A program made the position numbers and the translations under genes. From Sphingomonadales bacterium (lineage in GTDB: Bacteria > Pseudomonadota > Alphaproteobacteria > Sphingomonadales > Sphingomonadaceae): 33,781 nucleotides of DNA. Position 1 is the stretch's first letter. Every line of letters starts with the position of its first letter. This document shows positions 1 through 18,727 of the stretch, in pieces. The notes under the pieces were generated by a model, which was given only the letters and a program-made list of their open reading frames with translations, made no database searches and was not told the origin of the DNA. The DNA lies in assembly GCA_027485485.1 (NCBI GenBank), contig JAIXQY010000079.1, positions 1 through 33,781 of the forward strand, given 5' to 3'.

Positions 1-644
1 CGGTCTTCCAGCGCGGCCAGCGCGGCATGGATATCGGCCAGGCCGGGGCCAGAGATCACCCGTTCGGCCGAAACCCGGACAAAGCGGCGGCGGAAATGCG
101 CCAGGATCGCGTCTTCCAGACTGTCCACCGGGGAAAAATCGCCGTGGCTGCCTTCGGTGGGCAGCACCTGCCAATCCGCGCCGCCGTTCTTCACCAACAA
201 GCCAACGCCCAGCCCGGTGCCGGGGCCAAGCACGGAGATGGTGCCTCGGTCCGGCAGCGGCTGATCCGGGCCACACAGATGGCGGAACTGATCGGGCCCG
301 CAGGCGCCAACGGCATAGGCCACCGCTTCGAAATCATTGACCAGCACATGGGCATCAAGGCCGAGCTTCTCGTTCACCAGCGCCGGCCGGATCACCCAAG
401 GATTGTTGGTCAGCTTCAGCTCTTCGCCCACCACCGGGGCGGCCACGGCAATGGCGGCGGCGCGCGGCAGGGGCCGGCCCAGATTGGCGCCAAATGCCTC
501 CCACGCCATCTGCAGCGAGGCATGATCGGCACAGCGCAGCACCATCGGTTCATCCAGCGCAATCACATGGCCGGCACCGTCCAGCCGGGCCAGCGCAAAG
601 CGGGCGTGGGTACCACCGATATCGGCTGCAACCAGTTCAGTCAT
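1..644 (-). CDS. glk: Glucokinase, 3' end outside the window (partial)
   Basis: ATP-dependent phosphorylation of glucose to glucose 6-phosphate in the cytoplasm. The reading frame is open to the window edge and gives the N-terminal 214 residues; bacterial Glk proteins are usually about 320-330 residues. Near the N-terminus is the phosphate-binding motif ADIGGTHARFALAR, followed by the LVNDFEAVAYAV segment carrying the conserved Asp of the hexokinase/ASKHA fold, the glycine-rich LGPGTGLGVG loop and a TEGSHGDFSP segment resembling the Glk sugar-binding motif. This is the Glk (PF02685) type rather than the ROK type. The ATG lies inside the 3' end of zwf (8-base overlap), so the two are translationally coupled. 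It is missing from the ORF track because the frame has no stop in the window. In this operon it would phosphorylate glucose released by the upstream glucosidases and supply the substrate of Zwf. Confidence 0.93.
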   Translation of the reverse strand, partial: MTELVAADIGGTHARFALARLDGAGHVIALDEPMVLRCADHASLQMAWEAFGANLGRPLPRAAAIAVAAPVVGEELKLTNNPWVIRPALVNEKLGLDAHVLVNDFEAVAYAVGACGPDQFRHLCGPDQPLPDRGTISVLGPGTGLGVGLLVKNGGADWQVLPTEGSHGDFSPVDSLEDAILAHFRRRFVRVSAERVISGPGLADIHAALAALED

Positions 645-5044: not shown

Positions 5045-6657
5045 GGTGCGATGAGTCCCGAAAAGGGTGGCAACAGCCTGGCGCTGGCACCGCCGTGGCT
5101 GGCAAGGGGGGTGCCGATGGCCAGATCGACAAAGATTGGTTCGGCGCCCAGGTTGAAGGCGCAGACCAGCCGTTCATGGCCCAGCGCGCGGTGCAGGATG
5201 AGCAGATCGCCCGTGGCCACGGCCACATCGGCACTGCCACGCTTGAGGGCTGGTTGCTGCTGGCGCAGAGCCATCAACATGCGGGTCCACTGCAGCATCG
5301 CCTGGGGATCGGCCTGTTGCCGGTCCACCGCCCGCGCCGCATGATCGGCGCCCAATGGCAGCCAGGGCTTGGCGGTGGAAAAGCCGGCCTGGGGCAGCTC
5401 GGCGGCCCAGGGCATCGGGGTGCGGGCGCCATCACGGCCCAGAGTGAGCGGCCAGTTGGCGATGGCTTCAGGGTCCTGCAGATCGTCATAGCCAATCTCG
5501 GCCTGGGTGAGGCCCAGCTCCTCGCCATAATAGAGGAAGATGTTGCCGCGCAGGGCCACCAGCAGCAGCATGATCAGCCGGGCATAGTCATCATGATCCC
5601 AGGCCCCGTGCCAGCGGCTGGCGGCGCGCGGCGCATCATGGTTGGAAAAGGCCCAACTGGGCCAGCCGGTGCCGGCGGTTTGCGGCCATTCGGCCAGCGC
5701 ATCGGCGACCAGCCGGGGCGTGAGTGCCTCGCCATAGAGGAAGTTGAAGCCATAGGCCGAGTTCAGCCGTTTGCTGCCGGCGGTGAAGGCGTGCATTTCG
5801 GCAATCGCCTCGTCCCCGCCCACTTCGGCCACGGTGAAACGCCCCGGATAGTCTGCCATCACGCTGGCCACCCGTTCCAGAAAGCCCGGAATATCGGGGT
5901 GGGACATGTTGTGGATGCGGCGCTGAAAATCGAACGGGCGGGTGCGCTTGTGGTTGCCGCTGGCCGGCGGATTGTCACGCAGCAGCGGATCATGCATCGA
6001 AAAATTGATCGCATCGATGCGGAAGCCATCGACGCCGCGATCCAGCCAGAAGCGCGCCACATCCAATATGGCATCCTGCACTGCATGGTTGTGCAGATTG
6101 AGATCGGGCTGGGAATTCAGGAAGTTGTGCAGATGATACTGCTGCCGCCGGGCGTCCCAGGTCCAGGCCGGGCCGCCGAACACCGATTGCCAGTTGGATG
6201 GCGGGGTGCCATCCGGCTTGGCATCGGCCCACACATACCAATCCGCCTTGGGGTTGGTGCGGCTCTGCCGGCTTTCCTGAAACCAGGCGTGTTGATCGGA
6301 TGTGTGGCTCCACACCTGATCGATGATCACTTTCAGGCCCAGCGCATGGGCGCGGGCGATCAGCGCATCAAAATCGGCCAGCGTGCCGAAGATCGGATCA
6401 ACGCCGCGATAATCGGCCACGTCATAGCCAAAATCCCGCATCGGCGAGGTGAAGAAGGGCGACAGCCAGATCGCATCGACATTCAGCGAGGCAACATGAT
6501 CCAGCCGCGCCGTGATGCCGGGCAGATCGCCAATGCCATCGCCATTGCTGTCCAGAAAGCTCCGCGGATAGATCTGATAGATGCTGGCCCCCAGCCACCA
6601 CGGCGCCGCGGCGGCGGTTTGGGCTTCGGGCAGGGCTTGGGCGGCATCAGGCATCAT
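5035..6657 (-). CDS. GH13 alpha-glucosidase (oligo-1,6-glucosidase / maltase type)
   Basis: Hydrolyses terminal alpha-glucosidic bonds of maltose and maltodextrins. The N-terminal IYQIYPRSFLDSNGDGIGDL is the hallmark of the oligo-1,6-glucosidase/alpha-glucosidase branch of GH13. Catalytic residues are visible in the conserved regions: the nucleophile Asp215 in GFRIDA, the acid/base Glu278 in VAEVGG and the transition-state stabiliser Asp341 in FSNHDA. The length of 540 residues is normal. No signal peptide is evident, so a cytoplasmic enzyme is likely, in contrast to the secreted amylase and GH97 enzyme beside it. It begins ATGATG, and the first ATG overlaps the amylase stop by 4 bases; its stop overlaps the GH97 start by 10 bases. 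A trehalose- or sucrose-cleaving specificity cannot be excluded from sequence alone. Confidence 0.94.
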   Translation of the reverse strand: MMPDAAQALPEAQTAAAAPWWLGASIYQIYPRSFLDSNGDGIGDLPGITARLDHVASLNVDAIWLSPFFTSPMRDFGYDVADYRGVDPIFGTLADFDALIARAHALGLKVIIDQVWSHTSDQHAWFQESRQSRTNPKADWYVWADAKPDGTPPSNWQSVFGGPAWTWDARRQQYHLHNFLNSQPDLNLHNHAVQDAILDVARFWLDRGVDGFRIDAINFSMHDPLLRDNPPASGNHKRTRPFDFQRRIHNMSHPDIPGFLERVASVMADYPGRFTVAEVGGDEAIAEMHAFTAGSKRLNSAYGFNFLYGEALTPRLVADALAEWPQTAGTGWPSWAFSNHDAPRAASRWHGAWDHDDYARLIMLLLVALRGNIFLYYGEELGLTQAEIGYDDLQDPEAIANWPLTLGRDGARTPMPWAAELPQAGFSTAKPWLPLGADHAARAVDRQQADPQAMLQWTRMLMALRQQQPALKRGSADVAVATGDLLILHRALGHERLVCAFNLGAEPIFVDLAIGTPLASHGGASARLLPPFSGLIAPCA

Positions 6658-8510
6658 CGTGCACCTTCGTCACTGCTGCACACCGCCACCCCCAATGGTG
6701 GCAGGCTGATCGTTACTGTGCCCGGCGCTGCGGCCGTGGCGGGGCAGGCGCCCAGCCGGCTGGTCCAGGCCATGCTGGCCGGATCGACCATCACATTGGC
6801 GGTGAGGGGGGTGTTGGCGGTGTTCATCACCACCAGGGTCTCGCCCGCCCGGCCGGACAGGCGGCGGGAAAGGGCAAACAGGCCCGGCGCATCGCCGGCC
6901 GCGCGCACCAAGGTCTGGCCGTGGCGCAGGCGCGGATCGGCGGCGCGCACCGCCGCCATTTCCTTGATGGCGCGGTAAAACGGGTGTTTGGGATCATAAC
7001 TGTCCACCCCATGCCCGGCGGTGGTCGCGAGGCGCTGCATGGCGCGATACTCGGGCACCTGGCTGGCGAACAGCGGCTGGCGGGCGTTCTGATCATTGCC
7101 AGTGCCGATGAAGCCCTGCTCGTCGCCAGCATAAAGCGTTGGCACACCACGGGAAAGTAGCAGAAGCGCATGGGCCAGCAAGGTGCGCTGCGCCAGTTCG
7201 ACCGTGCCGATCTGCGGGTTGGCGCGGCGCACGAACCAGGCAAAACGGCCGCCATCATGGTTGCTGATGAAGCTGGCGTTGGTGCCGGCGGTGGCCTCCC
7301 CCTGGCGGTAGAGCACATCATCGGCGAACAGCCGCGCCAGCACCGATGTGGGCGCTGCACCGGCGATGGTCTGCATGGCGGCGTTGGTCAGGGCGAAATC
7401 CAGCACATTGTCCATGCCGCTGATGATGCTGTTGCGGGCGAGGCGGCCCACATCGACATCGTCGATCGAAACCTCCCCGAAAATATGGAAATTGGGGATG
7501 CCGGCGGCCTTGGCGCGGGCCTGCATGGCCGGCACAAAGGCTTGCCAGAATTGGGGGTTCACATGCTGGGCGGTGTCGACGCGATAACCATCGATGCCCA
7601 GCCGGTCGATCCAGTCGCCATAAATTTCGATCATGCCGGCCACCACGCGCGGATGTTCGGTGGCCAGATCATCCAGGCTGACGAAATCACCGAACTGGCT
7701 GGATTCATTACGGAAAACGGTTTCGCCGCGGTTGTGGTAATAGATGGGATCGTTCAGCCAGGCCGGGGTTTTGGCGCGTTCCTGCCCGGCGGGGATGAAG
7801 GGCGTGTAGGCAAAATCGGGGCGGGTGAATTTGGCCCAGTTTTCGGTGGTGGCGATGTGGTCGCCGGCGAAACCGGGGTTGATCGGGGCGCCCGAAAGGC
7901 CGCCCTGGCGGCTGTAGGGATAGTCCGCCCGGCTGCGGTAAGCGCATGGTTTGTCAACACATTCCCGATACTGGATCACGTCGGCAGTGTGGTTGGTGAC
8001 GATATCGAGATAGACCTTCATGCCGCGGGCGTGGGCGGCATCGACCAGGCGCTTCAGATCGGCGTTGCTGCCCAGATGGGGATCGACCCTGGTGAAATCG
8101 GTGATCCAATAGCCGTGATAGCCGGCCGATTCCTGGCCTGGCCCACCTTGCACCGGCTTGTTGGCAAACACCGGGGCGAGCCACACGGCGGTGGCACCAA
8201 GCCCCTGGATATAATCGAGTTTCTGGATGATGCCGGCGATGTCGCCGCCGTTGAAAAAGGCCTTGGATGTGGGGTCAAAGCCGGTCTGCAGCCGCCCGCC
8301 AACGATGCCGCCGCGATCATTGGTCGGGTCGCCATTGGCGAACCGGTCGGGCAGCAGGAAATAGATCAGCTCATCCTGCGGCGGGCGGGCGCGAACGGCG
8401 GCCAATGCTGCCGGATCGGGCAGGCTGGTGGCCAAAACCGGGGCTTTGGTGGCCGCATTTGCGGCAATTGCGGCCCCAAACAGCAGCGCGGTGGCCAGCG
8501 TGCGGATCAT
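6654..8510 (-). CDS. Exported GH13 alpha-amylase family protein
   Basis: Predicted endo- or exo-acting alpha-amylase that shortens alpha-glucans outside the cytoplasm. Residues 1-20 (MIRTLATALLFGAAIAANA) form a Sec signal peptide. GH13 regions are complete: DIVTNH (about 169-174), the nucleophile Asp312 in GYRVDTAQH, the acid/base Glu346 in FGEV and Asp419 in FISNHD. The FLLPDRFANGDPTND segment near residue 60 is typical of cyclomaltodextrinase/extracellular amylase-like members. ATLYAGDEQG-type sequence (PTLYAGDEQGF) follows the last conserved region, and a C-terminal beta domain completes the 618 residues. The start overlaps the halogenase-like gene by 4 bases (ATGA) and the stop overlaps the alpha-glucosidase by 4. 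In the operon it would create oligosaccharides for the two glucosidases; exact product pattern is unknown. Confidence 0.94.
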   Translation of the reverse strand: MIRTLATALLFGAAIAANAATKAPVLATSLPDPAALAAVRARPPQDELIYFLLPDRFANGDPTNDRGGIVGGRLQTGFDPTSKAFFNGGDIAGIIQKLDYIQGLGATAVWLAPVFANKPVQGGPGQESAGYHGYWITDFTRVDPHLGSNADLKRLVDAAHARGMKVYLDIVTNHTADVIQYRECVDKPCAYRSRADYPYSRQGGLSGAPINPGFAGDHIATTENWAKFTRPDFAYTPFIPAGQERAKTPAWLNDPIYYHNRGETVFRNESSQFGDFVSLDDLATEHPRVVAGMIEIYGDWIDRLGIDGYRVDTAQHVNPQFWQAFVPAMQARAKAAGIPNFHIFGEVSIDDVDVGRLARNSIISGMDNVLDFALTNAAMQTIAGAAPTSVLARLFADDVLYRQGEATAGTNASFISNHDGGRFAWFVRRANPQIGTVELAQRTLLAHALLLLSRGVPTLYAGDEQGFIGTGNDQNARQPLFASQVPEYRAMQRLATTAGHGVDSYDPKHPFYRAIKEMAAVRAADPRLRHGQTLVRAAGDAPGLFALSRRLSGRAGETLVVMNTANTPLTANVMVDPASMAWTSRLGACPATAAAPGTVTISLPPLGVAVCSSDEGAR

Positions 8511-10021
8511 GATCGTGTCTCCTGTGCGGCGGCATGGTGGGCCAGCCAGTCGCCATGGCCGGGCAGCGCGGCAACGCCGGCCGTGATGGCCCGATCCAGC
8601 AGGCCCATGAACCCGGCCAGATCATCGCGGCCCATGGCGGCGGTGAGCGGATGGGCCGCCAGCGGCGCGCACCCCTGCCCGATCAGCACCTGGGCCCAGG
8701 CCAGTTCGGTGAACAGCTCGTCATGGTCGCGGCGAATGCGGCCGGTGTGGCGGAACAGGTCCATCCGCTCCGCCAGCTCGGGCGGCACGGCCATCGCCTG
8801 CACCTGTTGCCAGAACGGCGTGTCGGCCCGCGCCGTGGCCTTGTAGTGCAGGATGATGAAATCGCGCACCCACTCCATCTCGCGGGCGGCCTGGCGGTTG
8901 GCTTCGGCGGCCAGCACCGGCAGCGTGGCCGCATCGCCGGGCAACAGCGCCAGCAACCGGGCAATGCCGGACTGGATCAGGTGGATAGAGGTGGATTCCA
9001 GCGGCTCCAGAAAGCCCGCCGCCAGCCCCAGCCCGATGCAGTTGCCGATCCACATCTTGTCGCGCCGCCCGGCCTGAAAGCGAAGCGTGCGTGGCTCGGC
9101 CAGCCCCGGGCCGTCCAGATTGGCCAGCAGCGTGGCGGTGGCTTCATCCGCGCTGAGATGGGCCGAGGAAAACACATGGCCATTGCCGATGCGGTGCTGC
9201 AGCGGGATGCGCCATTGCCAGCCGGCGGCGCGGGCGGTGCTGCGGGTATAGGGTGTCAGCACCGCGCCGGCGGCATGGGCGCAGGGCACCGCCACCGCGC
9301 TGTCACACGGCAGCCAGTGCGACCAGTCGTGCCAACCGCTGCCCAGCGTTTCGCCGAGCAACAGGCTGCGGAAGCCGGAGCAATCGACGAACAGATCGCC
9401 GGTGATGCGGCGGCCATCGTCCATGTGCAGGGCCAGGATGGTCTCACCCTGGGTTTCCACCTGCGCAATCCGGCCTTCATGGCGCGTCACGCCGCGCGCT
9501 TCGGCATAGCGGCGCAGATAAGCCGCATAGAGGCCGGCATCGAAATGATAGGCCCACACCAGGGGCGGCAGGGTGTTGTCGCCGCCGAACGGCGCAAAGC
9601 GGCCGGCGCGGGCGGCGCGTTCGTTCAGGCTGTAGTGGCCATAGTCGCCCGCCAAGCCGGCGGCGCGGGCGGCGGTCCACCAATGGTGGAACGGCACCAC
9701 ACTCAAGGCCCGCCCCACCTCACCGAAATTGTGCATGTAACGCTGGCCGGGCTGCCACCAATCGACAAATTCGATGCCGAGTTTCAGCGTTCCTTGCGTG
9801 GCGGAAAGGAAATCCGTCTCATCAATGCCCAGCCCGGCGTTGAACAGGCGGATCTGCGGGATGGTGGCTTCGCCCACCCCCACCGTGCCGATGGCATCGG
9901 ATTCCACCAGCACAATGCGCCAGCCCGGCCCGCAGAAACGGGCCGCCGCGGCCGCCATCATCCAGCCGGAGGTGCCGCCACCGGCGATGACCAGCGTCTG
10001 GATTGGTTGGTCGGGCATCAC
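8507..10021 (-). CDS. Tryptophan-halogenase-like flavoprotein 1
   Basis: Member of the flavin-dependent halogenase family (PF04820), which uses FADH2, O2 and halide to halogenate electron-rich substrates. The FAD motif GGGTSGW is at residues 14-20 and GVGEATIP near 48. The second family signature WxWxIP is present as WQWRIP (268-273). Lys80 in TQGTLK lines up by position with the catalytic Lys79 of PrnA/RebH, and Glu342 in EPLEST with the conserved Glu of that motif, so the protein looks catalytically intact. The frame starts with GTG at 10021; the ATG one codon later is equally possible and no strong ribosome-binding site is visible for either. It is the first gene after the hairpin following the TonB receptor and overlaps the amylase by 4 bases. 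Family members beside TonB receptors are known in Caulobacterales, Sphingomonadales and Xanthomonas; some halogenate indoles in vitro, but the natural substrate here is unknown. Confidence 0.9.
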   Translation of the reverse strand: MMPDQPIQTLVIAGGGTSGWMMAAAAARFCGPGWRIVLVESDAIGTVGVGEATIPQIRLFNAGLGIDETDFLSATQGTLKLGIEFVDWWQPGQRYMHNFGEVGRALSVVPFHHWWTAARAAGLAGDYGHYSLNERAARAGRFAPFGGDNTLPPLVWAYHFDAGLYAAYLRRYAEARGVTRHEGRIAQVETQGETILALHMDDGRRITGDLFVDCSGFRSLLLGETLGSGWHDWSHWLPCDSAVAVPCAHAAGAVLTPYTRSTARAAGWQWRIPLQHRIGNGHVFSSAHLSADEATATLLANLDGPGLAEPRTLRFQAGRRDKMWIGNCIGLGLAAGFLEPLESTSIHLIQSGIARLLALLPGDAATLPVLAAEANRQAAREMEWVRDFIILHYKATARADTPFWQQVQAMAVPPELAERMDLFRHTGRIRRDHDELFTELAWAQVLIGQGCAPLAAHPLTAAMGRDDLAGFMGLLDRAITAGVAALPGHGDWLAHHAAAQETRS

Positions 10022-10035
10022 GGCTTTTGCGCATG

Positions 10036-10075
10036 AAAAAGGCGGCCGGCCAAGGGGGAACCAAGGCCGGCCGCC
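10036..10075 (-). terminator. Intrinsic terminator / attenuator after the TonB receptor gene
   Basis: On the minus strand an 11-bp perfect GC-only stem (GGCGGCCGGCC paired with GGCCGGCCGCC) with a 13-base loop is followed directly by TTTTT. It begins 12 bases after the receptor stop codon and ends 14 bases before the halogenase-like gene. This is the textbook shape of a rho-independent terminator. Since the rest of the operon has no visible promoter in this 66-base gap, partial read-through would set a high receptor to low enzyme ratio. Confidence 0.88.
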
Positions 10076-10087
10076 AGCATCGCGCGA

Positions 10088-12844
10088 TCAATAGCGCCAG
10101 TTGAAGCCAACCAGGAAGCGCCGACCATAATCCTGATAGTCGATGATTTCCTGCGGACGGCCGGGGTTGAAGGTGACGAACGGTTCGTTGGTCAGATTCT
10201 GCGCCTGGGCCAGCAGGGTGAGGCCCTTCAAGGCGCCGCCCTGGATTTCATAACTGATCTGCGTGTCGAGGATCAGCTCGCCATCGGCGCGGCGGCGCTG
10301 GTTGCCGCCGCCAAAGCCGCGCAGCTCGCCCTGGAAGGAGGAGCGGGTGCGCATCGAGGCACGGGCCGAGAAGCCGCCCTTTTCATAATAGCCGGTGAGG
10401 TTGGTCACCCAGCGCGAATAGCCGGGCAGATCATCGGCATCAGCCCCCGGCGCCGGGGCAACCTTGCTCTTGGTCCACGCCGCCGAGCCGTTGATGCCAA
10501 AGCCATCAAGCGCGGTGGTGAAGGTGGAGAAGGGCAACTGGCCCGACAGCTCGGCGCCATAAAGCTGGCCGCCGTCGCCGTTCACCCACTGGGTGACAAA
10601 GCCCTGGCGGGTCCGCGGTTCCGGCACGCCCTGCGGCAGCGGGAAGCCGGCGAAGTTGAACGGCGTCGCCAGCTCATAGATATAGCTCTTCAGATCCTTG
10701 TAGAAACCGGCGAGCGCGATGTAGCCCTTGCCATCGAAATATTTTTCCACCGAAAGATCGATGGCATTGGCGCGCCATGGCCGCAGTTGCGGGTTGCCGC
10801 CGCCGCCACTCCATGGGGTCACACCCTGGGTCTGGCCCAGCGCTGGATCAAAGTTGAAGTTCACCGCCGCGCGCATGTCGTCCATGCGGGGCCGGGCGAT
10901 CTGGCGCGCAACGCCAAGGCGCACCACCACATCATCCGGCATGCGCAGCGACAGGTTGGCCGATGGCAGCACATCGGTGTATTTCGCGCCATCCGTGCGC
11001 AGGGTGGACACCACGCTGGTGCCGTTGCCGGAGGAGACCAGCGCCGTCGAGCTCTGATCAACATTGACCACCTGCACACCGATGTTGCCGGTGAGCTTTG
11101 ACCCGCCGATATCGGCGTTGATCTTGGCCATCACCCAACCGGTGAAGACCTTTTCGCGCACCGTCCAGCCCTTGGTGTTCACATCGGCATTGGGGTTGCG
11201 CACCCGGTTGTAGATGCCGCTGTTGAGCAGGGCGAGCGGATCATAGCTGACCATCGGGCCGAGGCCGAGGAAGCCGAGGTTGGTGGTGCCCAGCCGCGCA
11301 TCGGTGGGGATGGCAACGCTGGTTTGGCCATCGGTGTTGCCGCGCAGGCCCAGGAAGAATTCATCCGGGGTGAGTTCCTTCTCGCGGTTGGTGTAGTTCA
11401 CGCCGGCCTGGATGCCGCTGATCGCGCCGTCCAGCTTGCGTTCCACCTGGGCGCGGAAGGCATAAAGTTCGTCGCTGATCTGGCGATCGTTGAAATAGCC
11501 ATCCTGGCCGCCGCGGATCGGCTGGCCGCCGGGGTTGGCGACATCGCCGCCCCAACCCTGCGGGCTGGTGAGGCGGATCAGGTTGTAATCGCCATAATTC
11601 AGCGTCGGGCGGAAGGTGGCGCCGCGATCGGTCATGGTGAAGCCCAGCGCATCGGTGGCGCCCAGCGGGCCGCGGCCGGTGCCGGAATAGGTTTCCAGCA
11701 CCAGTTCCGAACGGTCGATGCCGGAATAGCTGGCATCGCCGATCACCTGCCAATCATCATTTTCCCACTTGATGTTGAGGCCGCCGGAGTAAAGATCGGC
11801 TTCCTTCTTGTTGAGATCGTTGCGCACCACGCCCTTCACACCATTGAAGGTGCCATTGGTGACCAGGCCGTTCGCGGTCTGGAAGCCGGGGGCGAGCTGG
11901 GCGGCGGACCAGAACAGCGGCAGCTCGATGCCGCGCAGCACCTGATCTTCCTTGAACTTGCTGTAATAGCCGTCGAACGCGATGGTCAGATCTTCGGCGG
12001 GCTTGAATTCCAGCGCGCCGGTGACGCCGGTGCGCTGGAGGCGCACGCTGTCCACATAGGATTTGGAGCCACCGATGACGACGTTGGACGCATTGGCGTT
12101 GGGATAGCCCCAGGCGTTGAAACGTTCGGTCTGGGTGGGGGAATCGATATGGCTGATGCCCAGCAGCACGCCCACCTTGCCATCGGCAAACTGGTCGACA
12201 TAGAGCGCCGAACCGCGCCAGCCAAACTTCTTGGAATCGACGTTCAGCCGGCCATTGTCGGTATATTCATAGCGCGCGCCGACCGAGATGACCTGCTTGC
12301 CATAGGACAGCGGGCGGATGGTCTGCAGATCGACCGTGCCGGACAGGCCCTGCGCCACCAGGCTGGCATCCGGGGTCTTGTAGACCAGCACCTGGTTGAT
12401 GACTTCGGCCGGATATTGATCGAATTCCACCGAGCGGTTGTCACCGTTGGTGACCTGTTCGCGGCCGTTGAGCAGCGTGGACGAGAAATCCGGCGCAAAG
12501 CCGCGGATGGAGATGACCTGGCTGCGGCCGTTGAGGCGCTGCGTGGTCAGGCCGGGCAGGCGGGCGATGGCATCGGCAATCGAGTTGTCGGGCAGGCGGC
12601 CGATGTCTTCGGCGCTCACCGATTCAACGATGCGATCGCTGTTGAGCTTGTTGGACAAGGCCACCTGCAGCGAGCGGCGATAGCCGGTGACCACAAGCTC
12701 CTCGGCCGCCGTGTCGGCTTCGGCGGCGGCGGTTTTTTCCGGCGCAGCGGCGGTTTGCGCCAGCGCCGGCACCGCCAGCAGCGCCAATGCCACGGGGCTG
12801 GCCACACCCGCCAGCAAGGTTGCACGCACAAAATCAATTCGCAT
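10088..12844 (-). CDS. TonB-dependent outer-membrane receptor, maltodextrin-type candidate
   Basis: Energy-coupled outer-membrane channel, here probably for maltooligosaccharides given its neighbours. A signal peptide ends near PALAQ (about residue 30). EELVVTGYR is a TonB-box-like segment, followed by a plug domain (SAEDIGRLPDNSIADAIARL and INGR-like SQVISIRGF) and a long 22-strand-type barrel ending in the aromatic FLVGFNWRY. The plug sequence matches the large Caulobacter/Sphingomonas-type receptors of about 900 residues (TIGR01782 type). Three in-frame starts exist: GTG 12853, ATG 12850 and ATG 12844. I chose 12844 (918 aa) because the GGGGGG run on the minus strand lies 8 bases upstream. 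It is divergent from the LacI gene, with two operator-like palindromes between them. Substrate is inferred from context only. Confidence 0.94.
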   Translation of the reverse strand: MRIDFVRATLLAGVASPVALALLAVPALAQTAAAPEKTAAAEADTAAEELVVTGYRRSLQVALSNKLNSDRIVESVSAEDIGRLPDNSIADAIARLPGLTTQRLNGRSQVISIRGFAPDFSSTLLNGREQVTNGDNRSVEFDQYPAEVINQVLVYKTPDASLVAQGLSGTVDLQTIRPLSYGKQVISVGARYEYTDNGRLNVDSKKFGWRGSALYVDQFADGKVGVLLGISHIDSPTQTERFNAWGYPNANASNVVIGGSKSYVDSVRLQRTGVTGALEFKPAEDLTIAFDGYYSKFKEDQVLRGIELPLFWSAAQLAPGFQTANGLVTNGTFNGVKGVVRNDLNKKEADLYSGGLNIKWENDDWQVIGDASYSGIDRSELVLETYSGTGRGPLGATDALGFTMTDRGATFRPTLNYGDYNLIRLTSPQGWGGDVANPGGQPIRGGQDGYFNDRQISDELYAFRAQVERKLDGAISGIQAGVNYTNREKELTPDEFFLGLRGNTDGQTSVAIPTDARLGTTNLGFLGLGPMVSYDPLALLNSGIYNRVRNPNADVNTKGWTVREKVFTGWVMAKINADIGGSKLTGNIGVQVVNVDQSSTALVSSGNGTSVVSTLRTDGAKYTDVLPSANLSLRMPDDVVVRLGVARQIARPRMDDMRAAVNFNFDPALGQTQGVTPWSGGGGNPQLRPWRANAIDLSVEKYFDGKGYIALAGFYKDLKSYIYELATPFNFAGFPLPQGVPEPRTRQGFVTQWVNGDGGQLYGAELSGQLPFSTFTTALDGFGINGSAAWTKSKVAPAPGADADDLPGYSRWVTNLTGYYEKGGFSARASMRTRSSFQGELRGFGGGNQRRRADGELILDTQISYEIQGGALKGLTLLAQAQNLTNEPFVTFNPGRPQEIIDYQDYGRRFLVGFNWRY

Positions 12845-12967
12845 GTTCATCACCCCCCAAAATCAGCCGCATTGCCCGTTGGCGGGCTGGATCTGACAGA
12901 GCGGCTGTTCAGCGTGATGTTTGTGACTGACAAGCAACAGGCAGCGCAATATGGCCGCATATCCGGA

Positions 12968-12977
12968 CATACGTATT
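12968..12977 (+). promoter_or_regulatory. LacI-type operator O2 (near the receptor transcription start)
   Basis: CATACGTATT is a one-mismatch copy of the perfect palindrome CATACGTATG found 51 bp away, with the central CpG typical of LacI-family operators. It lies just downstream of the predicted receptor promoter, where a bound repressor would block initiation or clearance. The regulator encoded next door is the obvious candidate ligand. Confidence 0.68.
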
Positions 12978-12986
12978 CACGTGGCT

Positions 12987-13015
12987 ATTATGTCACGCTA
13001 AGCCTTGGCCAACAA
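12987..13015 (-). promoter_or_regulatory. Predicted sigma70-type promoter for the TonB receptor operon
   Basis: On the minus strand TTGTTG (-35, 3 of 6 matches) and CATAAT (-10, 5 of 6 matches) are separated by exactly 17 bases. The transcription start would fall near 12980, about 135 bases before the receptor start codon. LacI-like palindromes lie immediately upstream of the -35 and immediately downstream of the start. The opposite strand of the -10 reads TATTAT and could serve the lacI-family gene, giving overlapping divergent promoters. Prediction from consensus only. Confidence 0.5.
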
Positions 13016-13017
13016 AG

Positions 13018-13029
13018 GCATACGTATGC
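13018..13029 (+). promoter_or_regulatory. LacI-type operator O1 (perfect 12-bp palindrome)
   Basis: GCATACGTATGC is a perfect palindrome with a central CpG, the usual form of a LacI-family half-site pair. It abuts the predicted -35 of the receptor promoter and lies about 40 bases before the regulator's own start codon. Centre-to-centre distance to O2 is 51 bp, close to five helical turns, so both sites face the same side of the helix and could be bridged. Autoregulation of the LacI gene is also plausible. Confidence 0.72.
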
Positions 13030-13067
13030 AGCCACAGGGCTGAATTTGGGGAAGGGTGGCCGGGCCA

Positions 13068-14081
13068 ATGGCACGGGTGACCAGTTTCGATATTGCTGCC
13101 TTGGCCGGGGTGTCCCAACCCACGGTGTCGCGCGCGCTGTCGGGCAACCCGGCGGTTTCGGCCGAAACCCGGGCGCGGGTGTTTGCGGCGGCCGAAGCGC
13201 TGAATTACAAGGTGGACAAGAACGCCTCCAACCTGCGGCGGCAGGCGACGCGCACGCTGGCGCTGCTGTTCTTTGAAGACCCGGCGCCGGGCGAGACGCA
13301 GATCAACCCGTTTTTCCTGTCGATGCTGGGCGCCATCACCAAGCGCTGTGCGGTGGCCGGCTATGATCTGCTGATCAGCTTCCAGCAATTGTCCGGCAAC
13401 TGGCATGTGGATTATGAGGATGCGCGCCGGGCCGATGGTCTGATCCTGCTGGGTTATGGCAATTATCTCGAGTATCTGCCGCGCCTGGAACAGCTGGTGC
13501 AGCAGGGCACGCATTTCGTGCGCTGGGGCAGTTTGCGGCCCGGCCAGTTGGGCACCACCATCGGCAGTGACAATCTGGGCGGCGGGCTGGCCGCCACGCG
13601 CCACCTGATCGAGCGCGGGCGGCGGCGGATCGCCTTCATCGGCACCGCCAACGAAGGCGCGCCGGAGTTTCTGGACCGCTGCGAAGGCTGGCGCGCGGCG
13701 CAAGCCGAGGCCGGGCTGGTGGCCGATCCGGCCCTGATGCGCGCCGCCAACAGCAGCGAGGAGGAAGGCTACGCCGCCGCGCGCGATCTGCTGGCCGCCG
13801 GTGCTGCATTTGATGCGATCTTCTGCGTGAGCGATCTGGTGGCCATTGGCGCTATGCGCGCCCTGGCCGAAGCGGGCCGACACGTGCCGGATGATGTGGC
13901 GGTGGTGGGCTTTGACGATCAGCCCGCCGCCAGCCTGACCAGTCCGCCGCTCACCACCGTGGCCCAGGATGCCCGCCATGCCGGCACCGTGCTGGTGGAA
14001 ACATTGCTCGACCGGCTGCGCGGCGAGATTCCCAGCCCGCAGGCGCTGCCGGCGCGGCTGGTGGTGCGGGGATCGAGTTGA
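13068..14081 (+). CDS. LacI-family transcriptional regulator of the glucan locus
   Basis: DNA-binding repressor with a sugar-sensing domain. The N-terminal helix-turn-helix is plain: VTSFDIAALAGVSQPTVSRALSG, then the hinge region KVDKNASNLR. The rest is a periplasmic-binding-protein-like effector domain, with VGFDDQPAASLTSPPLTTV near the C-terminus as in most LacI proteins. The track starts at GTG 13056; I prefer ATG 13068 (337 aa) because GGGGAAGGG lies about 11 bases before it but runs into the GTG, and because MARVTSFDIA is the usual family N-terminus. It is divergent from the TonB receptor and its promoter region holds two LacI-type palindromes, so it most likely controls the receptor operon and itself. 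The inducer is probably maltose or a maltodextrin product, by context only. Confidence 0.94.
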   Translation: MARVTSFDIAALAGVSQPTVSRALSGNPAVSAETRARVFAAAEALNYKVDKNASNLRRQATRTLALLFFEDPAPGETQINPFFLSMLGAITKRCAVAGYDLLISFQQLSGNWHVDYEDARRADGLILLGYGNYLEYLPRLEQLVQQGTHFVRWGSLRPGQLGTTIGSDNLGGGLAATRHLIERGRRRIAFIGTANEGAPEFLDRCEGWRAAQAEAGLVADPALMRAANSSEEEGYAAARDLLAAGAAFDAIFCVSDLVAIGAMRALAEAGRHVPDDVAVVGFDDQPAASLTSPPLTTVAQDARHAGTVLVETLLDRLRGEIPSPQALPARLVVRGSS

Positions 14082-14088
14082 AGCAGAT

Positions 14089-14136
14089 CCTCCCCAAACT
14101 TGTTTGGGGAGGTGGCGCCGAAGGCGACGGAGGGGC
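14089..14136 (+). repeat. Palindromic intergenic repeat, left copy
   Basis: A 48-base unit: a 10-bp hairpin CCTCCCCAAA / TTTGGGGAGG with a 4-base loop, then GGTGGCGCCGAAGGCGACGG and GAGGGGC. It pairs as an inverted repeat with the unit at 14151-14200. Elements of this shape are common between genes in sphingomonads and Caulobacterales. It starts 7 bases after the LacI stop codon. Confidence 0.85.
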
Positions 14137-14150
14137 TGCTTGCTCCACGG

Positions 14151-14200
14151 GCCCCTCTGCCTCGCGTTGCTCGGCACCTCCCCATGCAAGCATGGGGAGG
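14151..14200 (-). repeat. Palindromic intergenic repeat, right (inverted) copy
   Basis: Read on the minus strand this 50-base unit starts with an 11-bp hairpin CCTCCCCATGC / GCATGGGGAGG and then AGGTGCC...GAGGGGC, parallel to the left copy but with a diverged inner part. It ends 2 bases before the stop codon of halogenase-like gene 2. Together with the left copy it separates two convergent genes and could act as a bidirectional terminator, although no U-run follows the hairpins. Confidence 0.85.
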
Positions 14201-14202
14201 AC

Positions 14203-15714
14203 CTAATTTGCCGCGCAGTGGCGGGCGATGAAGGCGGCGTGGGTGGGCATTTCGGCGGCGGCTTCGCGCATCACGCGGGTGAGGCCCGCCAGCAGGCGCG
14301 GCGCGTCCACCTGGGGGGCGCGGGCATCGGCGAGCGGATCATAGGATGAAGCCAGGTTGAACTGGCCGACATGCACGGCGAGCCAGCTTGCGTTGAGGAA
14401 CAGTTCGGGGCCGTCTGACACCAGGCGGCCGGATGAACGGAAATGCGCGATCTTGTGCGCCAGTGTGTCGGGAATGGGCATGGCGGCGCAGTGTTGCCAC
14501 ATCGGCTCGTCGCGGCTGTTCAGATGATAATGGAGGATGAGGAAATCGCGGATCCGCTCCCACTCGGTGGCGGTGACGCGGTTATACTCGTCGCGCACCA
14601 GCGCGTCCATGGCGCGGGTGGGCCACAGCGCCAGCAGCCGCATCAGGCCGGATTGGACGAGGTGGAGCGAGGTGGATTCCAGCGGCTCCATGAAGCCGGC
14701 GGCCAGCCCGATGGCAACGACATTGTGGCTCCAGGCGCTGGCCCGGCGGCCGGTGGTGAATTTCAAAAGGCGCGGATCGGCCAGCGCCGGGCCATCGAGA
14801 TTGGCCAGCAGGATGGCGGCGGCTTCATCTTCGCCCAATAAGGCGCTGGAAAACACATGGCCGTTGCCGATGCGGTGTTGCAGCGGAATGCGCCATTGCC
14901 AGCCGGCGGCATGCGCGGTGGAGCGTGTGTAGGGCGTGAAGCCGGCGTCATCGCTGCCGTTCGCGTGGGCGCAGGGCACGGCGAAGGCGCGGTCACAGGG
15001 CAGCCAGTGGGTCCAATCGACGAACGGGGTGTCCAGGGCTTCGGCGATGAGGAGGCCGCGGAAGCCGGAGCAATCGATCCAGAAGTCCGCCTCGACCTGG
15101 CGGCCATCGGCGAGCGTGATGGCGCTGACATTGCCGGTTTCGCCATTGCGGGCCACGCCGGTGATGCGGCCTTCATGGCGGGTGACGCCTTGTTGTTCCG
15201 CCAATGTGCGCAGGGCGCGGGCATAGAGGCCTGCATCGAAATGATAGGCATAATCGAAGGTGGATTGCACCAGCCGGCGATCCTGCGCTGGCGGGGCGAA
15301 GCGGTTCGAGCGGGCGGCCACCCAGGCCATCGAATAATCGTCCAGCGGCGTGGCATCGCCGGCCAGCCGCTGCCGGTTCCACCAATGGTGCAGGGTCACA
15401 CTGTCAAAATCCGCGCCGTATGTGCCGAACGGGTGGAAATAGCGGTGGCCGGCCTGGCCCCAGCCAACGAATTCGATGCCCAGCTTGAAACTGCCTTGCG
15501 TGGCGCGAACGAAATCGGCTTCGTTCAGGCCGAGCATCTGGTTGAACAGCTTGATCGGCGGGATGGTGGCTTCGCCCACGCCGACGGTGCCGATGTCTTC
15601 GGATTCAACCAGCTGGATGGCGACGCCGTGGGGCAGGTTGCGGGCCAGCGCCGCGGCCGCCATCCAACCAGCGGACCCGCCGCCGACGATGCAGACGGAG
15701 CGGACCGGGTTCAC
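14203..15714 (-). CDS. Tryptophan-halogenase-like flavoprotein 2
   Basis: Second flavin-dependent halogenase family protein (PF04820), clearly homologous to the one at 8507-10021 over the whole length. FAD motif GGGSAGW is at residues 11-17 and GVGEATIPP near 45. WQWRIP occupies 272-277, Lys77 in TQGSFK corresponds to the catalytic Lys, and Glu346 lies in EPLEST; the last two motifs fall at nearly the same numbers as in PrnA. The 503-residue length is normal. It starts with GTG, overlapping the antiporter stop by 4 bases (GTGA), and ends 2 bases from the palindromic repeat. It belongs to the symporter-antiporter operon rather than the glycosidase operon, yet both operons have LacI-like sites upstream. 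Substrate unknown; a non-halogenating flavin monooxygenase role is possible. Confidence 0.9.
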
Positions 15715-16988
15715 GCCTCCACCCCCTCAGGCGTGATGTGCCCGGTGCGCGGCAGCAGATACTTCAACAGCGGCCCGGTCATGATCGTGGTCACCACCGC
15801 CATCACCACCAGCATGGTGAAGACATTCGGCGGAATCACCCCCAGATCGCGGCCGATGTTGAGCACGATCAGCTCCATCAGCGCGCGGGTGTTCATCAGG
15901 CTGCCCAGCACGGCGGATTCCGCCGGGGTATAGCCCGAAAGCCGGGCGGCGCCATAAACGGGAATGATCTTGGCGAGGATGGCAATGGCAAGGATGATCG
16001 CCAGCCACACGAGATCGCCTGCGCCAAGGCCCAGCAGATTGGTGCGCAGGCCCGTGTAAGTGAAGAACACCGGCAGGAAGAACACCAGCACGAAACCGCC
16101 CACCTGGCCCTTCCACGCCGCCACAAAGCCGGTGTGGCGGTGCATGATCAGCCCGCCCAGAAAGCCGCCGAAAATCGCGAATATGCCCAATTTATAGGTA
16201 CAGATCGCCAGCCCGAACACCAGCGCCAGCATGGCCGCCATCAGCGTGGGATCGATGCGGCCGCCCGTGGGCGGAAAGGCCGCCACCAGCCGGCTGGCCA
16301 ACGGCGCCAGCACCAGCCGCGCGATGATCAGCAGCGTGCCGATGCCGGCCAGTTGCAGCGCCAGATCAAGACCGGAAAAACGCGACGCTGCCAGTGCCGA
16401 AATGCTGGCCAGCATCACCCAGCCCGCCACATCATTCACCGCCGCCGCCGCAATCGCCACCACGCCCATTGGTTTGTCGGTCAGCCCGAACTGCGCCAAT
16501 ATGCGGCCCAGGATGGGCAGTGCGGTGATCGCCATCGCGTTGCCGCAGAACAGCGCATAGAGCGTGGGATCAATGCCGGGGGCCAGCGCCTCGGCGCTCA
16601 ACCAGCCAAACGCCAGCCCGGCCAGCAATGGCACCGCCACCGAAGCCCCGGCAATCAGCAGCGCGCCCTTCCGGTGCTGCGGGGTTTGCAGATGGCCGAA
16701 TTCGAACTCGCTGCCGATCTGGAACATCAACAGCGTCAGGCCGATCTGGCTGATGATGGTGATGGCCGGCGCCGGCGTCGCCCCGAACAATTGCACCGAA
16801 AAGCCCGGTGCCAGCGCCCCCAGCAAGGATGGGCCCAGCATCAGCCCGGCGATGATTTCGCCCACGGCGCCGGGCTGCCCCAACCGCCGGGCGACGATGT
16901 TCAGCGCGCGGGCGGCCGTGATCATGATGATCAACTGCACCAGGACGCTGAACAAAAGATCTTCGTTGCTGTGGACGCTGCTTGCCAT
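15711..16988 (-). CDS. Cation:proton antiporter, CPA2 / Na_H_Exchanger family
   Basis: Integral inner-membrane exchanger of monovalent cations for protons (PF00999). The 425 residues contain about 12 hydrophobic segments. Family features include [21 protein letters not shown] near the N-terminus, [16 protein letters not shown] and the AAVNDVAGW segment with an Asn-Asp pair at the ion-binding position. There is no C-terminal TrkA-N or RCK domain, so it resembles short KefB/NapA-like proteins. ATG start 20 bases after the symporter stop; its stop overlaps the halogenase-like gene by 4 bases. Coupling to a sodium:solute symporter gene suggests it expels the sodium that enters with sugar. The ion (Na+ or K+) is not determined by the sequence. 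Confidence 0.9.
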
Positions 16989-17008: not shown

Positions 17009-18604
17009 TCAGGCGAAGCGCCAGACGATGACAAATGTCGCAGCCAGCAGCGCAATGGCAAGCACGCGATAATTGGCCCAGATCGGCGTGCCGGCCAGGC
17101 TGGCGGTTTCGGCATCGAAGAAGCTGCGGTTCCACAACAGGCCAGCGGTTTTTTCCGGCGGTGGCGGCGGGGCCGAGAGCGAGCCGACCACCATCGCCAC
17201 CGCCGAGGCTGCCAGCAAGATCGGCGCCACGTGCAGGAAATGGATCTGCACACTGCCGGTCACATTGATGGCGAAGAACAGCCCGATGCCCATCACCAGC
17301 CCGGTGGCGATGGCGGCGCTGGCCCCGCGGGCATTGGCACGTGGCCAGAACAGGCCGAGCAGGAACACCGCGACGATCGGCGGCGCGGTGTAGCTGAGCG
17401 CGCCTTGCAGATATTGCCACACGCTGCCGAAGCGTTCGATCTGCGGGGCCACCACCACCGCCACCAGCAGAAACACCAGAGTGGCCAGCCGGCCGGTGCG
17501 CACCAGCGCCTTGCCCTCCAGATCCGGGTTCCAGTGGCGGGCGAAATCCATGGTGAACAAGGTGGCGGCCGAATTGAAGGTGGAGGCGGTGGCCGACATG
17601 ATGGCGGCCAGGAACCCCGCCACCACCAGGCCCAGCAGGCCGGTGGGCAACAGATCGAACATCAGGGTGGGATAGACGAGATCGGGCGTCTTCAGCGCCG
17701 GATAGAGCAGGATGGCACAAGTGCCGGGCAGCACCATCAGCCACAGGACCGGCAGTTTCAACAGCCCGGCAAACAGGCTGCCCCAACGGCCATGATCGAG
17801 ATTGCGGGCCGACAGCACCCGCTGCACCATGAACTGGTTGGTGCACCAGAAATAGAAACCCAATATGGGCACGCCAGTGATCAGCCCGGTCCATGGCACC
17901 GATGGATCATCCACCGGCCGGATCAGCGAGAGCTTGGCCGCCGGCACCTCGGCGACGATCCGGCTCCAGCCGCCCACCGCGTCGAAGGCGGCGATGGACA
18001 GCACCACGGCGGCGCCCAGCAGGATCACCGCCTGCAAGACTTCAGTATAGAGCACGGCCTTCAGCCCGCCGACGATGGTATAGACCCCGGCCAGCACGGC
18101 CAGCGCCACGATCATCTGCCACAGCGGCACGCCGGGGAAGATGAGGGACAGCATCAGCGCGCCGCCATAGAGCGTCGCCGCCTTGTCCACGAACACGCTG
18201 AGGAAGATGGTGAGCGCCGAGAAATAGGCACGGGTGCCGCGGCTGAAGCGGCGCTCCAGAAACTCCGGCATGGTATAGACCTGCGCGCGGATGATGAACG
18301 GCAGGAAGAAGATGCAGAAGAACACCAGGATGACGCTGGCCATCCACTCATAATTGTAAACCGCGATGCCATTGGCATAGGCCGCGCCAGCGAGCCCGAT
18401 CAACGTGGCCGACGAGATGTTGGACGCCAGCAGCGACAGGCCGATGACGGGCCACGAACTGTCGCGGCTGGCCAGGAAGAAATCGGTGCCGCTCGCCTGT
18501 TTGCGCCCGGCCCACAGGCCAAGACCAATCACCACCAGCGCATAGGCAGCGACCACGGCCCAATCCAGCCCGGCCAACCCGCGCGCAAACACATCACCCG
18601 CCAT
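17009..18604 (-). CDS. Sodium:solute symporter (SSS / SGLT type), probable sugar uptake
   Basis: Inner-membrane Na+-coupled transporter (PF00474), 531 residues with about 14 predicted membrane segments. Residues such as GLAGAAYANGIAVYNYEW, AQVYTMPEFLERRFS and SATASTFNSAATLF are typical of SGLT-like sugar symporters, and TAPPIVAVFLLGLFWPRAN is the conserved late helix. The track extends the frame upstream to 18733, but that part is hydrophilic, Arg/His-rich and reaches past the divergent gene's start. ATG 18604 is preferred because AAAGGGGAT sits about 9 bases before it and MAGDVFARGLAGLDW matches family N-termini. First gene of the operon with the antiporter and halogenase-like gene 2. It would import glucose or a disaccharide released in the periplasm; the real substrate is not shown. 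Confidence 0.92.
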   Translation of the reverse strand: MAGDVFARGLAGLDWAVVAAYALVVIGLGLWAGRKQASGTDFFLASRDSSWPVIGLSLLASNISSATLIGLAGAAYANGIAVYNYEWMASVILVFFCIFFLPFIIRAQVYTMPEFLERRFSRGTRAYFSALTIFLSVFVDKAATLYGGALMLSLIFPGVPLWQMIVALAVLAGVYTIVGGLKAVLYTEVLQAVILLGAAVVLSIAAFDAVGGWSRIVAEVPAAKLSLIRPVDDPSVPWTGLITGVPILGFYFWCTNQFMVQRVLSARNLDHGRWGSLFAGLLKLPVLWLMVLPGTCAILLYPALKTPDLVYPTLMFDLLPTGLLGLVVAGFLAAIMSATASTFNSAATLFTMDFARHWNPDLEGKALVRTGRLATLVFLLVAVVVAPQIERFGSVWQYLQGALSYTAPPIVAVFLLGLFWPRANARGASAAIATGLVMGIGLFFAINVTGSVQIHFLHVAPILLAASAVAMVVGSLSAPPPPPEKTAGLLWNRSFFDAETASLAGTPIWANYRVLAIALLAATFVIVWRFA

Positions 18605-18632
18605 GTTGATCCATCCCCTTTGGTGCGTGGGT

Positions 18633-18660
18633 GCCATGGCCGGCCCGGGCCGGCAATGGC
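18633..18660. repeat. Near-perfect 28-bp palindrome in the symporter leader
   Basis: The 16-bp core GCCGGCCCGGGCCGGC (18639-18654) is a perfect palindrome without loop, and five further pairs extend it on both sides past one mismatch. It lies between the LacI-like site and the symporter ribosome-binding site. It could form a strong RNA hairpin in the 5' leader, a cruciform, or be a protein-binding site. No T-run follows on either strand, so it is not a classic terminator. Confidence 0.7.
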
Positions 18661-18670
18661 GTGCGTGCGC

Positions 18671-18682
18671 GTATTCGTATGC
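18671..18682 (-). promoter_or_regulatory. LacI-like operator O3 upstream of the symporter operon
   Basis: On the minus strand GCATACGAATAC matches the perfect palindrome O1 (GCATACGTATGC) at 10 of 12 positions; the left half GCATACG is identical and the central CpG is kept. It is about 67 bases before the symporter start codon and lies in the shared region with the divergent monooxygenase gene. This suggests the LacI protein also controls symporter, antiporter and halogenase 2. Confidence 0.5.
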
Positions 18683-18727
18683 AAAGCGACAGGTGGCGGA
18701 GCGCCAGCGCCCGCATAAAGTGGCGCC

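Follow-up and report, generated by a model that had tools for sequence, protein, structure and literature searches.

Why would a locus for alpha-glucan import and breakdown carry two flavin-dependent halogenases? The window (the whole 33,781-nt stretch of Sphingomonadales DNA analyzed here) contains two such genes, hal1 and hal2, with the genes for a TonB receptor and a LacI-family regulator located between them:

8507..10021, minus strand: hal1, flavin-dependent halogenase (PF04820) of the alpha-glucan-locus type; K80, E342 and WQWRIP intact; Ser345
14203..15714, minus strand: hal2, second flavin-dependent halogenase, in its own clade; catalytic residues as in hal1; nearest solved structure BrvH (6FRL)
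10088..12853, minus strand: TonB-dependent receptor, first gene of the hal1 operon (TIGR01782, 584 bits)
13056..14081, plus strand: LacI-family regulator, divergent from the TonB receptor

hal1 and hal2 retain the catalytic residues of flavin-dependent halogenases

Both proteins match PF04820 over the full-length domain (597 bits for hal1 and 606 bits for hal2, cut-off 21). They keep the FAD motif GxGxxG (GGGTSG in hal1, GGGSAG in hal2), the WxWxIP motif (WQWRIP in both), the catalytic lysine (K80 in hal1, about K77 in hal2) and the EPLEST glutamate (E342 in hal1). The original prediction of two catalytically intact halogenase-like flavoproteins was confirmed in all of these features and in the ends of both open reading frames. 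Signal peptides are absent from both proteins.

The motif Fx.Px.Sx.G, with Gly at the halide site, is kept by almost all, but not all, characterized flavin-dependent halogenases. hal1 and hal2 depart from it, with Ser rather than the canonical Gly at position 345, and Ser occupies this site in 98/102 members of the hal1-containing clade. The Gly is also replaced in BrvH and in two X. campestris halogenases, all of which are active (PMC7336383), and for this reason we did not count Ser345 against membership in PF04820.

Among solved structures, both proteins are closest to BrvH, Xcc4156 and 9LUQ, with 459-506 bits for hal1 over nearly its full length and 445-488 bits for hal2, and their alignments to Xcc4156 and BrvH run from one end to the other with no large insertions. 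By homology, these full-length matches of ~500 bits settle the fold and place hal1 and hal2 among BrvH/Xcc4156-type halogenases, for which an open, short-looped active site is predicted by homology only. The enzyme family itself is already known.

The two halogenases lie in separate operons

hal1 is the second gene of an apparent single operon (TonB receptor-hal1-GH13-GH13-GH97-esterase-G6PD-glucokinase), while hal2 is the final gene of an operon that also encodes a symporter and an antiporter-like protein:

6654..8510, minus strand: GH13 alpha-amylase-like protein, apparently with a signal peptide; 4-nt overlap with hal1
5035..6657, minus strand: GH13 alpha-glucosidase-like enzyme
2999..5044, minus strand: GH97 glucosidase
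2079..3002, minus strand: esterase (PF00756)
637..2082, minus strand: glucose-6-phosphate dehydrogenase (G6PD)
3..647, minus strand: glucokinase, continuing beyond the window edge
15711..16988, minus strand: Na+/H+-exchanger-family membrane protein (antiporter-like); 4-nt overlap with hal2
17009..18733, minus strand: SSF sodium:solute symporter, first gene of the hal2 operon

Both halogenases had been placed in operons for glucan breakdown and sugar import. This stands for hal1, whose operon is broader than had been stated, but not for hal2, whose operon (SSF-antiporter-hal2) contains no glucan-breakdown gene. Two other loci, L230 (from another genome of the genus) and the joined G216 locus, also have a hal2-type gene beside a Na+/H+-exchanger-family gene.

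Pairwise identity of hal2 is ~60% within its own group of ten members, 54% with hal1 and ~34% with the operon-end halogenases. These identities overturned a tree grouping of hal2 with the operon-end halogenases (support 0.72), and a simple two-clade A+B pair story was dropped since hal2 proved to be a separate type. hal2-type genes co-occur with hal1-type genes in 9/10 loci, a count skewed by the fact that hal1 was the query that had fetched most of them. When hal2 was used for the search, a second halogenase lay within ~22 kb in at least 6 of the 12 closest matches (window included); among the matches listed, some of the other closest ones were on short contigs and some stood alone.

A putative LacI operator precedes both halogenase operons

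The LacI-type operator core CATACGWAT precedes both the hal1 and the hal2 operon, at three putative sites:

12967..12978, plus strand: putative LacI operator 1, ACATACGTATTC
13018..13029, strand not applicable: putative LacI operator 2, perfect palindrome GCATACGTATGC
18671..18682, minus strand: putative LacI operator 3, GCATACGAATAC, at the 5' end of the SSF-antiporter-hal2 operon

Operator 3 falls within the longest SSF open reading frame, and the true SSF start is thus probably downstream of this site, at ATG codons near 18605-18615. The genome has four occurrences of the extended form of the operator, and the window locus accounts for three. A motif derived from the three window sites and then tested on other loci was found upstream of the receptor in 29/44 alpha-glucan halogenase loci versus 0/36 halogenase-free receptor loci. 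The shared-operator arrangement and the hal1/hal2 layout are repeated in L230, which, together with the common putative operator, strengthens the original claim that the two halogenases are paired at this locus. Judging from these sites, one sugar-sensing LacI repressor appears to govern the induction of hal1 and hal2 and of the starch-import and digestion genes, and the two halogenases are very likely members of a glycan-uptake regulon.

Halogenases of this family adjoin TonB receptors across Proteobacteria

In an order-wide survey of Sphingomonadales, 67 of the 82 halogenase clusters that could be resolved lay no more than 3 kb from a TonB receptor, compared with only 11/425 control points (2.6%) in random regions of the same genomes, and the family adjoins TonB receptors across Sphingomonadales and the wider Proteobacteria. 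Absence of the receptor at some loci was considered but often did not hold, a more divergent receptor lying alongside where the first profile had shown none. Within alpha-glucan loci the position of the halogenase between receptor and amylase is fixed, and most of a 24-member clade (tree support 0.98) has the order receptor, halogenase, amylase. A function tied to glycan uptake had been proposed from the window alone; the receptor linkage across Sphingomonadales and Proteobacteria and the fixed place of hal1 in alpha-glucan loci support it, and the association with glycan loci holds in other genomes.

The halogenases accompany varied glycan enzymes (GH13/97, GH3/16 and GH43). Because the same enzymes occur with different glycans, a role in the uptake machinery fits at least as well as one on a particular aromatic glycoside. 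A tie to the receptor is supported by the receptor tree, on which halogenase status changes 7 times, compared with 29-37 times when shuffled, and by distance matrices uncorrected for shared ancestry, in which the partial r was 0.52 for receptor and halogenase given LacI, and 0.19 for halogenase and LacI given the receptor. Against it, many TIGR01782 receptors in the same genomes function without a halogenase. Co-tracking of receptor and halogenase could come about simply from both following the glycan.

We found no report of a halogenase association with TonB receptors, SapC or glycan loci in the open-access literature. The pairing occurs in many Proteobacteria, and its purpose has seemingly never been tested. 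The claim of an undescribed system holds as to function but not as to the gene association, which is widespread and visible in public annotation.

A hairpin may hold hal1 expression below that of the receptor

The gap between the receptor and hal1 is 66 nt long and is mostly occupied by a hairpin:

10041..10075, minus strand: terminator-like hairpin with a T5 tail, GGCGGCCGGCC...GGCCGGCCGCC TTTTT, between the receptor and hal1

Hairpins occur at the receptor-halogenase position in 36/75 loci versus 2/150 random stretches. Generic promoter and terminator scans performed at chance level, and the 11-bp hairpin was missed because its loop exceeds the length that the terminator scan allows; comparison with Rfam gave no match. 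From its form and position, the hairpin is a probable partial terminator that would hold hal1 expression under the receptor level. This suggests a low hal1 stoichiometry, which fits a substoichiometric, catalytic role.

A protein substrate and its alternatives

In our best explanation, hal1 and hal2 would be working BrvH/Xcc4156-type halogenases that depend on FADH2, and the local LacI repressor would control their induction together with that of the genes for importing and degrading alpha-glucan. Since they lack signal peptides, they would act in the cytoplasm, using reduced FAD from a housekeeping reductase (the genome has two flavin reductases, neither on the window contig nor on C97). Hypohalous acid would form when a FAD hydroperoxide oxidizes halide, and the Lys/Glu pair would steer this acid onto an aromatic group of a macromolecular substrate entering through the open active site. 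The likeliest substrate would be the not yet exported precursor of the TonB receptor, or else a protein that partners the receptor, and the two halogenases could represent two sites or two steps. The sequences themselves show the family, the catalytic residues, the linkage to receptors and the shared operator sequence with its recurrence. We infer regulation by LacI, cytoplasmic location, halogenation in vivo and a protein substrate, and we put forward the whole model (working halogenases, LacI-induced with the alpha-glucan genes, cytoplasmic, with a macromolecular or protein substrate) tentatively.

Sister loci carry a Cupin_8 enzyme whose closest resemblance is to the protein hydroxylases FIH and JMJD5, an observation that supports a protein substrate. 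The genome also has two further halogenases at a second TonB-receptor locus, and SapC and a FIH/JMJD5-like oxygenase are added at a locus of this genome other than the window locus. At the window locus hal2 does not adjoin the receptor, which speaks against the model. A receptor residue as the substrate was rejected: no Trp/Tyr column tracks halogenase presence, and no receptor Trp or Tyr combined near-universal presence alongside a halogenase with absence from receptors that lack one (118 versus 37 receptors). The aromatic content of receptor N-terminal segments differs little with or without a halogenase and gave no lead, and we found no halogenated protein from these bacteria on record. More broadly, sugar-induced protein halogenation (or hypohalite-dependent oxidation) in TonB-importing Proteobacteria, with paired halogenases and, in sister loci, FIH-like hydroxylase/SapC, might mature or tune outer-membrane uptake, a generalization that we regard as speculative and rather improbable.

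Alternatively, the substrate could be a small aromatic molecule (indole-like, phenolic, aryl glycoside or signal) that arrives with the glycan or is made during its use, yielding a signal or an inhibitor of competitors; we consider this possible but doubtful. Related proteins had been said to halogenate indoles in vitro, and this is borne out for BrvH (PMC5945002) and for Xcc4156 (PMC7336383), both of which act on free indole and its derivatives. Induction with glycan uptake would also suit defense of a food source. However, no aglycone-degrading, biosynthetic, secondary-metabolite or dedicated export genes were recognized in the window locus, and no biosynthetic, aglycone-degrading or export genes were among the top families of sampled neighbors at other halogenase loci. 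The glycans moreover vary. The substrates originally suggested (an aromatic glycoside, a signal or a defensive compound) find no support in these data. No tnaA-type tryptophanase was detected in the genome, making free indole unlikely as the natural substrate. PMC5945002 reports low BrvH activity on indole, none on free Trp and loss of activity in K83A, and its authors doubt that indole is natural. Given these reports and the lack of a detected tnaA, indole is disfavored as the natural substrate.

The enzymes could also be flavin monooxygenases or oxidases in vivo, carrying out hydroxylation or a controlled release of peroxide or hypohalite, with halogenation a side reaction seen in vitro. The halide-site Ser of hal1, hal2 and nearly all of the hal1-containing clade fits this questionable reading, as do the oxygenase-like enzymes of sister loci and a weak match of hal2 to the flavin monooxygenase QhpG model (27 bits versus a cut-off of 240). 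Yet Lys, which positions HOX, and Glu are invariant in all relatives that cover those positions, one dead clade excepted, and halogenation explains this invariance most easily; BrvH, with the same Ser, brominates and requires its Lys (PMC5945002).

That dead clade consists of 11 related proteins without one or both catalytic residues, mostly inside tandem arrays. Their retention beside intact halogenases and near receptors suggests that some members may serve without catalysis, and hal1 and hal2 could likewise be mainly structural or regulatory partners (a flavin or sugar sensor, or a receptor chaperone) for which catalysis is secondary. This is unlikely: dead proteins never substitute for active ones, every array examined has intact copies too, hal1 and hal2 are both intact, and the hairpin suggests low stoichiometry. 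Chance neighbors or an annotation artifact, with secondary-metabolism genes near a sugar locus by accident, has only the generic label 'tryptophan halogenase' in its favor and is already refuted by the receptor adjacency in the survey, the widely kept TonB receptor-halogenase-amylase order and the operator common to both promoters, so that its probability is negligible.

Relation to known systems

To our knowledge, BrvH and the Xanthomonas halogenases have been studied as biocatalysts, with no natural substrate known. BrvH (Brevundimonas BAL3, PDB 6FRL) matches hal1 (459 bits) and hal2 (488 bits) over the full length and resembles them in K83, WxWxIP, Ser replacing the halide-site Gly and fold family; its gene cluster also has a second halogenase gene upstream of brvH. 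It differs in having been assayed on small indoles, with no glycan-uptake role proposed in the passages of PMC5945002 consulted, whereas hal1 and hal2 are known from sequence.

The closest solved relatives of hal1 (~500 bits) are Xcc4156 (Xanthomonas campestris, PDB 6Y1W) and PDB 9LUQ, for which we found no paper. Xcc4156 has Asn at the halide-site position where hal1 and hal2 have Ser, and two Xanthomonas loci (L051 and L068) carry a receptor-sized open reading frame directly upstream of the halogenase. The authors of the Xcc4156 study extend a peptide-substrate hypothesis and describe an open, short-looped site (PMC7336383). An analogy with MibH and other peptide halogenases has been proposed in the literature for BrvH and Xcc4156, with a peptide as their substrate, but Xcc4156 is only 26% identical to MibH (PMC7336383), and no precursor-peptide gene was noticed at the window locus.

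The tryptophan halogenases PrnA, RebH, Thal and PyrH have the catalytic Lys/Glu and FAD motifs in common with hal1 and hal2, which, in contrast to the PrnA/RebH type, miss Fx.Px.Sx.G. Xcc4156 is only 32-34% identical to these four enzymes, and both BrvH and Xcc4156 lack their long substrate lid and Trp-backbone site (PMC7336383).

Finally, the Xanthomonas CUT and Caulobacter mal loci resemble the window locus in combining LacI, a TonB receptor, GH13/GH97 and an inner-membrane transporter, but the window locus has two halogenases built in; halogenases are unmentioned in the main text of a 2007 paper on carbohydrate-utilization loci (PMC1790865). Placement in a regulon supplies a testable inducer (maltose/starch), phenotype (glucan growth, receptor function) and substrate (the receptor or proteins that partner it). 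Should that substrate turn out to be a protein, bacterial nutrient uptake would involve a regulated protein modification of a new kind.

Halogenases accompany sugar receptors under probable LacI control

In the window, a TonB receptor gene and a divergent LacI gene are flanked by two PF04820 flavin halogenase genes, hal1 and hal2.

8507-10021 (-), hal1
10088-12853 (-), TonB receptor, TIGR01782 type
13056-14081 (+), LacI regulator
14203-15714 (-), hal2
18671-18682 (-), putative LacI operator at the 5' end of the SSF-antiporter-hal2 operon
18728-20080 (+), FMO-like flavin-binding monooxygenase, divergent from the hal2 operon and near the preceding operator

Of 61 genomes sampled across the order, 30 contained PF04820, but at a stricter threshold only 9 of 120 genomes of the phylum did. 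We fetched 74 regions around PF04820 genes, 25 random 20-kb regions from the same genomes and the 80 GTDB loci nearest hal1, and genes outside annotated records were called by homology guidance. Receptor and GH profiles were seeded mostly from the window, so divergent families are undercounted in the following figures: among the 82 halogenase clusters that could be resolved for the order (the window and contig 97 of its genome included), 67 had a receptor within 3 kb, versus 11 of 425 control points, and the GTDB set, whose loci were chosen for similarity to hal1, gave 77 of 82. This gene neighbourhood may already be familiar to specialists through genome annotation. LacI, SapC and Cupin_8 occurred in 32, 19 and 19 of the 74 halogenase regions, respectively, and in none of 36 regions around halogenase-free TIGR01782 receptors, the halogenase regions being somewhat the longer (10-20 kb versus 7-20 kb). 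Sugar loci also surround the halogenase-free receptors, where the accompanying genes are of the GH43, uronate, phytase and ROK kinds; halogenase loci carry LacI, MFS, glucokinase, GH13, GH16 and GH3. The halogenase thus accompanies a subset of sugar receptors that are mostly of glucose type and probably under LacI control.

Operon structure and putative LacI operators

Only 66 nt separate the receptor from hal1, and the gene row continues with 4-nt overlaps (hal1/GH13, GH13/GH13, GH97/esterase and esterase/G6PD), a slightly longer GH13-GH97 overlap and, at the window's edge, a glucokinase. Because of this spacing, the overlaps and the glucokinase, receptor-hal1-GH13-GH13-GH97-esterase-G6PD-glucokinase reads as one operon for alpha-glucan uptake and conversion of its glucose to 6-phosphogluconate. 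Between receptor and hal1 lies a hairpin with a T5 tail. In the survey, T-tailed hairpins came after the receptor in 36 of the 75 loci where a halogenase is the next gene, after 13 of the 38 receptors that lack one, and in 2 of 150 random stretches, so the operon probably yields more receptor than halogenase. On the other side, hal2 overlaps a preceding antiporter-like gene by 4 nt, which is itself preceded by an SSF symporter. The convergent LacI/hal2 gap (14090-14205) contains inverted repeats, CTCCCCAAACTTGTTTGGGGAG and CTCCCCATGCAAGCATGGGGAG, resembling a REP-type element.

Operator-like sequences occur in the receptor-LacI gap (ACATACGTATTC and the palindrome GCATACGTATGC) and at the start of the SSF-antiporter-hal2 operon (GCATACGAATAC). 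Against an expectation of 0.04 copies of their core, CATACGWAT, the window has four, at three places; the fuller form, RCATACGWATDC, has four sites across the 3.3 Mb genome, the three window sites among them. At the only extended copy outside the window (G000:C45:23931-23942), the window LacI may have another target. The pattern was derived from the window sites themselves, and other loci therefore provide the independent test. There, 29 of 44 alpha-glucan halogenase loci had the motif close to where the receptor begins, compared with 5 of 75 halogenase loci of other kinds and 0 of 36 loci that lack a halogenase, although phylogenetic relatedness inflates these counts, as it does the correlations described below. 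We infer that LacI binds these putative operators.

Two halogenase clades and a catalytically depleted one

The hal1 clade (24 members, support 0.98) mostly occupies the place between receptor and amylase. In the hal2 clade (ten members, support 0.96, ~60% identity within it), most members share a locus with a hal1-like gene, the sample having been drawn with hal1; with hal2 as query, a second halogenase lay within ~22 kb in at least six of the best 12 matches, counting the window. L230, a locus from a genome of the same genus, repeats the whole window layout, with the operator-like motif at both promoters. Many alpha-glucan operons carry at their 3' end a third kind of halogenase, only ~34% identical to hal2.

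Across 231 aligned halogenases, the catalytic Lys and Glu are kept outside one 11-member clade, the sole exception being a gap at Lys in one sequence. Every member of that clade (support 1.0), which excludes hal1 and hal2, lacks Lys (replaced by Ser, Arg or Ala), Glu or both.

Loci of the depleted clade: L026, L059, L071, L088, L090, L114, L132, L135, L136, L137, L145

These genes sit in tandem arrays, nearly all adjoining intact halogenases, and seven arrays combine one apparently dead copy with three intact copies from other clades, which suggests a hetero-oligomer or scaffold role.

A second locus and plasmid-borne modules

Of the four PF04820 genes in the window's genome, the two outside the window belong to a gene row on contig 97 that reads TonB receptor, halogenase, SapC, Cupin_8, halogenase, LacI, MFS, GH3. 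Plasmid records of Sphingobium RAC03 (receptor-SapC-cupin-halogenase-GH16-LacI-MFS-GH3) and Qipengyuania citrea (receptor-halogenase-GH13-GH13-GH97-halogenase) carry the same modules as this genome's loci. Halogenase-receptor-glycan loci were found on plasmids of Sphingomonas, Croceicoccus, Qipengyuania and Sphingobium, and the module therefore probably moves between hosts. Halogenases with 52-55% identity to hal2 are encoded in MT835646 and MT837902, two records from human faeces that are filed as phage but carry no annotation; given their sizes of 23 and 6 kb, bacterial contamination may account for them. Cyanophage relatives are distant (about 30%).

SapC (PF07277), FIH/JMJD5-like Cupin_8 and DUF6445 genes recur between TonB receptor and halogenase, with DUF6445 in this place in Sphingomonas sanguinis, for example.

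L005, 7065-17163, companion genes
L226, 8309-9004, companion-gene interval
L227, 7246-8989, companion-gene interval

Among solved structures, the contig 97 Cupin_8 protein is nearest to FIH and JMJD5, which are protein hydroxylases; a sequence search for solved relatives of SapC and DUF6445 found none.

Candidate substrates and solved relatives

Both hal1 and hal2 retain all catalytic motifs. Their FAD fold starts within about the first dozen residues, leaving no room for a signal peptide, and they would likely work in the cytoplasm. In this family, FADH2, O2 and halide give HOX, which is handed to the Lys. Taken with the probable location in the cytoplasm and the link to receptors, this chemistry makes a protein of the uptake machinery our leading but tentative guess for the substrate. 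Partial distance correlations, in which the halogenase followed the receptor rather than LacI, the recurrent FIH-like companion and the failure to detect a tnaA-type tryptophanase in the window's genome count for a protein substrate; against it, no receptor aromatic residue was found to track halogenase presence. Halogenation of a small molecule and a non-halogenating oxidation both come close behind.

The best solved matches were 9LUQ, Xcc4156 (6Y1W) and BrvH (6FRL) for hal1, and BrvH, 9LUQ and Xcc4156 for hal2. The Xcc4156 site is open, and its authors extended a peptide-substrate hypothesis to it (PMC7336383). BrvH is reported to brominate C3 of indole slowly, to reject tryptophan and to be dead as the K83A variant (PMC5945002). 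In the Fx.Px.Sx.G motif, Ser replaces Gly in both window halogenases, and BrvH is likewise reported to have Ser at this position.
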